In this document: positions 29,255 to 38,221 of the stretch, one piece after another
Position numbering within the stretch: position 1 is the stretch's first letter
Layout of the letters: the number at the start of each line of letters is the position of its first letter
Origin: Capsulimonadaceae bacterium
GTDB lineage: Bacteria > Armatimonadota > Armatimonadia > Armatimonadales > Capsulimonadaceae
DNA length: 38,221 nucleotides
NCBI GenBank assembly: GCA_031292625.1
Contig: JARLGU010000064.1
Coordinates: 1-38,221, forward strand
Direction of reading: 5' to 3'
The notes under the pieces: model-generated
What the model was told of the DNA's origin: nothing
The model's input: only the letters and a program-made list of their open reading frames with translations
The model's database searches: none
Made by a program: the position numbers and the translations under genes

Positions 29255-30001
29255 ATGCCCTATACGATCGACTTAGACGGTAAAAACGCAGTGGTGTCGG
29301 GAGGGACGCGCGGCATTGGCCTGGCAATCTCGCGGATGCTCGCGGAGTGCGGCGCCAGCGTCACGATGATCTACCGCGCCGACGATGCGGCGGCGGATGC
29401 GGCGCTCGAAAACCTGCCCGGCGACGGACACTGGGCCGTGAAGGCCGACATCGCCGACGCGGAAGCGGCCGAGGCCATCGCGGCGGAATGCGCCGAGCAG
29501 GCGGAGGGCGGGATCGACCTCATCGTCCTCAACGCGGCCCTGATCGCGGGCGGTTCGTTTTCACGCACGGACGCCGCAGCTTGGCGCAAAATGGTGGACA
29601 CCAACATACTCGGACAAGCGGCGCTTCTGCGTGGACTGGACAAGCACATTCGGCCGGGCGCAAGCATCGTCTTTATCTCGAGCGGCGCGGCCCACGAACC
29701 CATTGAGGGCATGACCGCGTACGGGGCAAGCAAGGCCGCAGTCAACCACTTCGCCGCCATCCTCGCTCAAGAATGGGGACCGCGCGGAGTTCGCGTCAAT
29801 GTCGTCTCGCCTGGCGGCACATCGAAGACCGCGGTCGATTACGACAACCTCACGGAGGGGCAAAAGGAGGCGATCGCTTCAACGGCGCTTCGGCGGCTTG
29901 GCACGACGGAAGACGTCGCCAAAGCCGTCCTCTTCTTCCTCAGCGATCTGTCCGGATTTGTTACCGGACAATGGCTTCGTTGCAACGGCGGGCGAGTCTG
30001 A
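29255..30001 (+). CDS. short-chain dehydrogenase/reductase (FabG-like)
   Basis: 248 residues of classical SDR architecture. The nucleotide motif is SGGTRGIG (15-22), with NAAL (93-96) in the NAG position. The catalytic residues are Ser142 or Ser143 (FISSGAA), Tyr156 and Lys160 (YGASK). The C-terminal half has WGPRGVRVNVVSPGGTSKTA and FLSDLSGFVTGQWLRCNGGR, the usual FabG-like end. The residue after strand 2 (YRADD) leaves cofactor preference open. The substrate is unknown. Neighbouring SGNH hydrolase suggests a small carbohydrate or lipid pathway. Confidence 0.92.
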   Translation: MPYTIDLDGKNAVVSGGTRGIGLAISRMLAECGASVTMIYRADDAAADAALENLPGDGHWAVKADIADAEAAEAIAAECAEQAEGGIDLIVLNAALIAGGSFSRTDAAAWRKMVDTNILGQAALLRGLDKHIRPGASIVFISSGAAHEPIEGMTAYGASKAAVNHFAAILAQEWGPRGVRVNVVSPGGTSKTAVDYDNLTEGQKEAIASTALRRLGTTEDVAKAVLFFLSDLSGFVTGQWLRCNGGRV

Positions 30002-30089
30002 TGCGTTGCTCCCGAGTTCGATTCGATGCAACTTGGCGTCGTTCGGGGCAACGGCCTCTAGGAAAGAAGGGGTGTCATTAATCGGCGTC

Positions 30090-30281
30090 GCGAGAAAGAT
30101 TCAGGACGGCTCGTGCCGCCGGGGCATTCTTTGCCCGCGCCTCGTTCACGGCGTTTGCAGCTAACGTCCGATACCAGCGTGTATCGCGAAGACGTTCAAC
30201 CGCTGTGACGCTCCTTATCCAAAAACGGCCACGGCGGCCCGGGAGCCGTCTTAAAACGCCTTTTGATTGTTTACACGCTTT
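30090..30281 (-). repeat. dispersed repeat, copy 1 (about 190 bases)
   Basis: Read on the minus strand this copy starts with AAAGCGTGT (30281-30273), then TAAGACGGCT and the hairpin GGCC-GCCGT-GGCC followed by TTTTT. It then has a diverged middle with a shared ATCGGAC, and ends with GTGAACGAGGCGCG (from 30149) to CCTGAATCTTTCTCGC (30090). The same modules in the same order occur at 37815-38046 on the plus strand. Here the terminator-like hairpin faces away from any gene end, so it is part of the repeat rather than a gene terminator. The unit fills most of the 350-base gap between the SDR and flavin-protein genes. Confidence 0.75.
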
Positions 30282-30351
30282 CTACATTGTTCTATCGCCT
30301 GACGAGGCTCCCTCGCAGGCACTCATTCTGTTACGAAAGGACCTTACGAAA

Positions 30352-37234: not shown

Positions 37235-37816
37235 ATGCCAGGAATACCGACTCTTACCGGACAGCACGTCAGACTCGAAAAACTCTCGCCGGATCATGCG
37301 TCCGGCCTCTGGGAAGCATCGCGGTTCGACGAAATCTGGTCCTACATGCCCAAGCGTCCGCGCACTCTCGACGAGATGTGCGCCATGATCGAGAGCTTTA
37401 CGACACCCACGTACCTCGACAGCAACAAACCATACGCAATCATCGAAGCGGCATCAAATGCCGTGATCGGCAGTACCCAACTGCTCGACATCGACTGGGC
37501 AAACCGCGGAGCCGAGATCGGCTGGACGTGGCTTACTCCCCGCGTCTGGCGATCACCCGTCAACACCGAATGCAAACTGCTGCTGCTTGCACACTGCTTC
37601 GAGACGCTGAAGTTCTTGCGCGTCCAGCTTAAAACAGACGCGCGGAACGAGCGTTCCCAGAAAGCGATCGAGCGCCTTGGAGCGGTCCGCGAAGGCGTCC
37701 TCCGCAGGCATCGAATTCTTTCGGACGGCTTCGTCCGCGATTCCGTCTACTATAGCATTGTATCAGAAGAATGGCCCGCCGTCCGCGATCGTCTCAATTT
37801 CGCGCTTCGACGTTAA
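37235..37816 (+). CDS. GNAT-family N-acetyltransferase (RimJ/RimL-like)
   Basis: 193 residues. It transfers an acetyl group from acetyl-CoA to an amino group. RimJ/L-type landmarks are VRLEKLSPDHASGLWEAS, PYAIIEAASNAVIGSTQLLD, AEIGWTWLTPRVWRSPVN, LLLLAHCFETLKFLRVQLKT and the late DARNERSQKAIERLGAVREG, a conserved CoA-contacting segment. The C-terminal SDGFVRDSVYYSIVSEEW is typical for the subfamily. The substrate (protein N-terminus, ribosomal protein or small molecule) is unknown. It ends exactly where the second dispersed-repeat copy begins. Confidence 0.92.
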   Translation: MPGIPTLTGQHVRLEKLSPDHASGLWEASRFDEIWSYMPKRPRTLDEMCAMIESFTTPTYLDSNKPYAIIEAASNAVIGSTQLLDIDWANRGAEIGWTWLTPRVWRSPVNTECKLLLLAHCFETLKFLRVQLKTDARNERSQKAIERLGAVREGVLRRHRILSDGFVRDSVYYSIVSEEWPAVRDRLNFALRR

Positions 37817-38046
37817 AGCGTGTGTAAAGAATCGAAAGGTCTTGTAAGACGGCTTTGCGGCCGCCGTGGCCGTTTTTGAAAAAGGGCCGGCATGGCGATT
37901 TTACTGATTAACGATGGGTGCGGTGATCGGACCTGTCAGCAAAAGGCCGTACGCGTGTTGACGCGGCATCGTAAACTACCGCAGTGAACGAGGCGCGCGC
38001 AAAGAATTGCCTCGGCGGCAACGGAGCCGTCCTGAATCTTTCTCGC
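37815..38046 (+). repeat. dispersed repeat, copy 2 (about 230 bases), including a terminator
   Basis: It begins with AAAGCGTGT overlapping the GNAT stop codon, then TAAGACGGCT and CGGCC-GCCGT-GGCCG followed by TTTTT (about 37859-37878). This hairpin with its T-tract should work as the terminator of the GNAT gene. The unit continues through a diverged middle (shared ATCGGAC at about 37926-37932) to GTGAACGAGGCGCG (37984) and CCTGAATCTTTCTCGC (ending 38046). Compared with copy 1 it carries an extra block of roughly 35 bases before the last module. Confidence 0.75.
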
Positions 38047-38221
38047 AATACGCCAGTTTAGTACGATCGTAGGAAAATACAGCTCAATTTGAGCGTGGTT
38101 CGCGCGTTCGGAGACCTCTCTACCCCATCGGAATGGGGTCCCCTTCTCTCCGAAACGGAGAGACTGTTGGCCGCATTGCCAAGCGCTCCTAAGCTCCTCC
38201 CGCTTCGGCTCCTCGGCCTCG
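38047..38221 (+). other. intergenic region with hairpins at the right edge
   Basis: TCTCTCCG-AAA-CGGAGAGA (38145-38163) is a perfect 8-bp hairpin with a 3-base loop, preceded by CCCCAT/ATGGGG pairing at about 38123-38138. No gene start is visible before the window ends. Confidence 0.4.

Follow-up and report, generated by a model that had tools for sequence, protein, structure and literature searches.

The window (the whole 38,221-nucleotide stretch that was analysed) holds two oppositely oriented copies of a dispersed repeat (Table 1). Copy 1 lies between two plus-strand genes, a short-chain dehydrogenase gene (29255-30001) on one side and a PNPOx-domain gene on the other, while copy 2 begins, as originally predicted, on the stop codon (TAA) of the open frame encoding a GNAT acetyltransferase. 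The repeated pair is real: aligned locally, the two window copies score 171, compared with a maximum of 37 in 300 shuffles, and every sequence block named in the original prediction is present. The extents given there (30090-30281 and 37815-38046) located the repeat correctly but were slightly short, the family consensus giving those in Table 1. The description as an inverted repeat pair holds in the sense that the two copies are oppositely oriented, and means nothing further.

Copy 2 is a full-length single-unit form whose right terminus is lost, with other sequence in its place. Another repeat (GGAAAATACAGCTCAATTTGAGCGTGGTTCGC, positions 38070-38110 of the window) adjoins this truncated end and recurs beside copies of the element elsewhere, at the edges of L100 and L083. 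In other copies, the equivalent of the core block of copy 2 recurs at 93-bp intervals together with the linker RAGACCGGTCCGTGACCGGC. Copy 1 has lost ~37 bp internally (anchor distance of 140 versus 177 bp) and carries a right end of a second type (CGCCGATTAATGACAC...); within its right module, the conserved CGAGCCGTCCTGAATCTTTCTCGC core at 30090-30113 is an exact match to the genome-wide pattern. No target duplication is recognisable at either window copy, and neither contains a promoter-like site. A terminator scan of the two copies gave matches only slightly above those of shuffled sequences.

Table 1. Position, strand and basis of assignment of the element copies, their modules and associated features. 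Coordinates refer to the window unless a locus is named.
Feature	Position	Strand	Basis or remark
Copy 1 of the proposed MITE	30072..30284	-	Consensus positions 3-254, 71.8%; degenerate termini
Copy 1, right (C) module	30090..30153	-	89.6% to copy 2
Copy 1, left-module terminator-like hairpin and T-run	30221..30240	-	Stem 30239-30227, then GTTTTT
GNAT acetyltransferase gene	37235..37816	+	Pfam PF13302 (Acetyltransf_3), 2.5e-19; stop codon coincides with start of copy 2
Copy 2 of the proposed MITE, full-length single-unit form	37813..38064	+	Consensus positions 2-252, 87.7%
Copy 2, left terminal inverted repeat AAGCGTGTGTAA	37816..37827	+	Pattern match 37816-37834; 1 change from GAGCGTGTGTAA
Copy 2, left-module terminator-like hairpin CGGCC-GCCGT-GGCCG-TTTTT	37858..37877	+	Terminator scan; compensated pair changes in family
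Copy 2, core block (B unit)	37929..38000	+	Quantised family lengths; unit alignment
Copy 2, right (C) module: inverted hairpin (TTGCCTCGGCGGCAA) and GAGCCGTCCTGAATCTTTCTCGC	38001..38046	+	Right-end pattern 38023-38046; family-wide minus-strand hairpins
Second-repeat loci struck by the proposed MITE	L021:1758; L116 6836 (-); L068 1236 (-); L181; L183

Family size, ends and target site

The right-end 24-mer has at least 141 matches in the 5.77-Mb genome (three mismatches or fewer), while a reversed-pattern control has none, which bears out the earlier guess that the window copies represent many in the genome. A set of 80 relatives, which included six members of the same family, gave no match to the element. 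An exact 23-mer was absent from a collection of 84,980 species, a search that would miss diverged relatives, a 19-mer was absent from IMG/VR, and relaxed BLAST against plasmids and phages found no element; these collections may omit records closest to the genome from which the window comes. Within the reach of these searches, the family is restricted to this one species. A second MITE subfamily (~240 bp; L161:1429-1670) differs in its left half but has the same terminal repeats and right-arm hairpin as the first, and its diagnostic module occurs at 16 sites in the genome. These shared features imply that both subfamilies would be served by the same transposase.

The original prediction proposed aligning copies to define the ends and target-site duplications, and both were obtained in this way. 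The full single-unit element is ~256 bp long, and conservation among the dispersed copies begins and stops at the terminal inverted repeats GAGCGTGTGTAA...TTACACACACTC. An exact two-ended pattern found no match across the genome because the ends have drifted. Directly outside the ends lie TNA trinucleotides. Of the 53 copies whose ends can be recognised, 20 have identical three-base flanks (5000 shuffles: mean 6.1, maximum 15), and 18 of the 22 copies having TNA on both sides carry the same N (shuffled mean 5.8, maximum 14). The flanks display a symmetric preference, TC-TNA-GA, part of which is inseparable from the element itself, as this starts with GAG and ends with CTC; the duplication may be longer than three bases.

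A second repeat family, GACTTTCGCTTTNTAAGAGAAGATGAGGATTAAGATG, stands uninserted in 16 places and thus provides related empty sites. At L021, L116 and L068 the element sits exactly at the TNA of this repeat, with TNA on both sides, and the right half of that site can be recognised at L044, L091 and L166. Compared with the uninserted sites, these loci are direct evidence of insertion, in the form of footprints within one genome. The second family (GGACTTTCGCTTTGTAAGAGAAGATGAGGATTAAGATGCCCTC..TGGCCGGGCTGGCCATTTTT) is itself dispersed and has its own terminator-like hairpin, and the element has repeatedly inserted into it at one site.

Set against the features that define MITEs (PMC10969869), the element is shorter than ~600 bp, occurs in many dispersed copies, has terminal inverted repeats and a TNA target-site duplication, and contains no transposase gene, being too short for one and having no consistently kept frame. 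The proposal of a non-autonomous mobile element is strongly supported by the inverted repeats, the TNA duplications, the related empty sites, the lack of an internal transposase and the presence of at least 141 mostly intergenic copies. The element is very probably a non-autonomous DNA transposon (MITE) moved by a transposase in trans, with an A-B(n)-C layout, inward-facing hairpin arms and a core that grows stepwise.

Modular core and hairpin arms

The distance between the left and right anchors is 173-181 bp in most copies and steps to 269-277, 353-363, 455-457 and 633 bp in others. The quantised lengths of 177, 270, 363 and 456 bp correspond to 93-bp steps, each added unit consisting of a 73-bp block and a 20-bp linker. 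The family also includes two right-end types and head-to-tail composites. The genome contains 92 linkers, several of which lie at extreme contig ends, and nine contigs (C2, C9, C20, C21, C23, C32, C33, C53 and C56) end in or beside linker-bearing arrays. Longer arrays therefore probably exist and break the assembly, and the element helps to explain the assembly breaks in this genome.

The 17-bp palindromic linker core, ACCGGTCCGTGACCGGC, has a divergence of 0.26% versus 7.1% for the blocks, in which the best 17-bp window diverges by 2.5%. Without the loci that had been selected by their linker, the values are 0.23% for the linker and 7.5% for the block. Across the 93-bp arrays (e.g. L053, L090, L039 and L174-L178), divergence of the linker is ~27-fold lower than that of the block. 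Selection on the linker and a recent single founder followed by later block exchange can both explain this conservation. A bolder reading, which we hold to be unlikely, is that the element is an expandable self-insulating cassette, where ACCGGTCCGTGACCGGC would be a working site for protein binding or recombination that drives the 93-bp growth while the paired inward terminators isolate the array.

The left arm aligns with the reverse complement of the right arm over ~75 bp (score 31; shuffled maximum 16), and each arm bears a hairpin with a T-run oriented for transcription entering from that side. The left hairpin is found in 80 of 101 copies, the right in 89 (stem of at least 4; 55 with a stem of at least 5) and both in 71, compared with 0-3 and 5-8 in base-shuffled controls. 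The left stem is paired in 97.8% of cells, 16 of which are compensated against a shuffled mean of 2.5. The compensated variant TTGCCGCCGGGGCAA is close to the right-arm hairpin in reverse complement, and outside the hairpin the copies that carry it are not mutually nearest relatives, so that exchange between the arms explains the pattern as well as repeated compensation does. A left hairpin resembling the reverse complement of the right-arm hairpin was observed at L026, L059, L095, L099, L111, L115 and L092, which suggests exchange between the inverted arms. As judged from sequence, bidirectional terminator activity of the element is possible.

The combined results suggest a model of how the family spreads and persists. 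A transposase supplied in trans would recognise GAGCGTGTGTAA/TTACACACACTC and insert the element at TNA, preferably within TCTNAGA, leaving the observed duplication of three bases. The arms, which are long imperfect inverted repeats, would tend to stop polymerase arriving from either side, as their predicted hairpins suggest, and the core block is probably amplified in 93-bp steps by unequal recombination or slippage, in keeping with the quantised lengths. Damage to the host may be limited by the intergenic position of the copies and by arms that insulate the neighbouring genes, a combination that would explain the occurrence of copies in all gene orientations.

Genomic setting and alternative readings

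The position of 101 copies was analysed relative to genes called with a simple codon-usage gene caller. Ninety-four copies lie between genes and seven partly overlap a predicted frame. The flanking genes are co-directional in 33 + 26 cases, convergent in 17 and divergent in 13. The upstream gene is directed at the element in 52 of the 94 cases, a split of 52 to 42 without clear bias, and copies do not build up downstream of genes as would be seen for a co-opted terminator. The family is thus unlike a standard 3'-end terminator. That copy 2 supplies the terminator of the GNAT gene, as originally suggested, is possible for this single copy but is not borne out for the family. Copy 1 had been said to point away from any gene, which is wrong; placed between two plus-strand genes, it would be entered from its right end by transcription of the dehydrogenase gene.

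These data also bear on whether the copies, while of MITE origin, are now kept mainly to separate host transcription units as domesticated bidirectional terminators, a reading compatible with the MITE explanation as to origin. It is consistent with the intergenic positions, with inward hairpins and T-runs on both strands in 71 of the 101 copies, and with the almost complete pairing of the left stem. The convergent arrangements (17, versus 33 + 26 co-directional and 13 divergent) nevertheless reveal no preference for sites where such a terminator would be useful, and a protective role inherited from a parent IS would account for the hairpins too. We regard domestication as improbable.

The original prediction also raised a family of structured RNAs, here taken to mean regulatory RNAs or riboswitch-like leaders, spread by duplication, whose conserved part functions as transcribed RNA. 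The RNA fold energy (z = -3.3) and the excess of compensated cells in the left hairpin are in keeping with this, yet the fold of a single DNA strand is no less significant (z = -4.57), the window has no Rfam match at the gathering threshold, and placement relative to genes is inconsistent. The covariation check proposed at the outset found compensated changes in the terminator-like hairpin only, where those of TTGCCGCCGGGGCAA could reflect exchange between arms. Over the whole element covariation is nearly nil, with 3 of 33 predicted pairs compensated. A function as structured RNA is not supported by these results, and we consider it very improbable.

Short open frames matching between the two window copies had been suspected to be by-products of DNA conservation, and this proved to be so: among 65 single-unit copies, 39 differ in length from the most frequent form, in most cases by 1-3 bases. 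Plus-strand peptides were rejected, as the anchor-to-anchor length shifts by 1-3 bases in many copies. On the minus strand, long open frames with 31-residue repeats cross the multi-unit copies L045, L072, L065 and L090, none of them consistently kept. That the element encodes a minus-strand repeat peptide, selfish or host-derived, with 31-residue repeats such as ARASFTAVIYDASSTRVRPFAAIVRRSRTGL, is scarcely credible despite a 93-bp unit equal to 31 codons, a frame free of stops in 65 of 67 units and an apparent dN/dS of 0.56, given that a site-level permutation of the phase effect yields P = 0.21, that copies differ in which of two minus frames is open, with no single frame kept, and that length changes of 1-3 bases are common.

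Possible parentage and comparison with known systems

No transposase with the ends of the element was found in the genome, a 65-contig draft that could lack or collapse the parent. None of its six PF01609 matches carries the element ends, and PF13586 and PF13340 have no match in the draft. Among 30 loci with near-intact right ends, the test applied identified 29 as MITE copies, and the other (L149, at a contig edge) also holds element sequence. An end-like match with two mismatches occurs at L122; another, at L126, was dismissed as a parent IS end as it falls within coding sequence. The GAG-type ends are, we assume, compatible with the IS5 family, IS1031 group. Derivation from the IS1031, IS427 or ISL2 groups of IS5 is not supported, the TNA footprint alone agreeing and no IS5-family transposase with shared ends being found in this draft genome. 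Insertion at a three-nucleotide site characterises the IS1031 group (PMC2516522); the three-base target is thus common to both, and the group may be regarded as a possible parent.

Among characterised repeats, SPRITE of S. pneumoniae consists of a single duplex with a T-rich tract and is enriched near the 3' ends of genes (PMC3049150). Dispersal and a terminator-like hairpin with T-run are common to both, whereas the element described here is modular and without enrichment near gene 3' ends. BrickBuilt of P. gingivalis is a MITE with an internal 23-bp minisatellite without spacers, present in 19 copies per genome and having bidirectional promoter activity (PMC4596501). The two have in common a leader, internal minisatellite and tail, inverted-repeat ends and an intergenic location. 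The present family differs in its 93-bp units with linker, its at least 141 copies, its terminator-like arms and the lack of a promoter-like site in the window copies.

The architecture also matches that of BOX in S. pneumoniae and S. suis, in which a pair of end modules, themselves exchangeable for alternative ones, encloses a variable boxB array (PMC3049150). Both are dispersed and modular, with two distinct end modules flanking a tandem core of variable copy number, predicted stem-loops and insertion into other repeat families. The alternative modules of S. suis (boxE/F around the same boxB) have their counterpart in the two right-end types and the second subfamily. Unlike BOX, the present element has 93-bp units with a nearly invariant linker, a visible TNA duplication and paired inward terminator-like arms. 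The label BOX-like refers to architecture and makes no claim of homology to boxA/B/C.

The family is a further case of a BOX-like, modular and expandable MITE, with clear target-site evidence, and no such family was found described for this genome. Its quantised array and conserved linker make minisatellite growth inside bacterial MITEs testable, and, if the paired inward hairpins terminate transcription, it shows how a high-copy intergenic repeat can stay tolerable in either orientation. The repeat is a new family of MITEs, BOX-like in architecture and of a known kind, the linker being its most unusual part.
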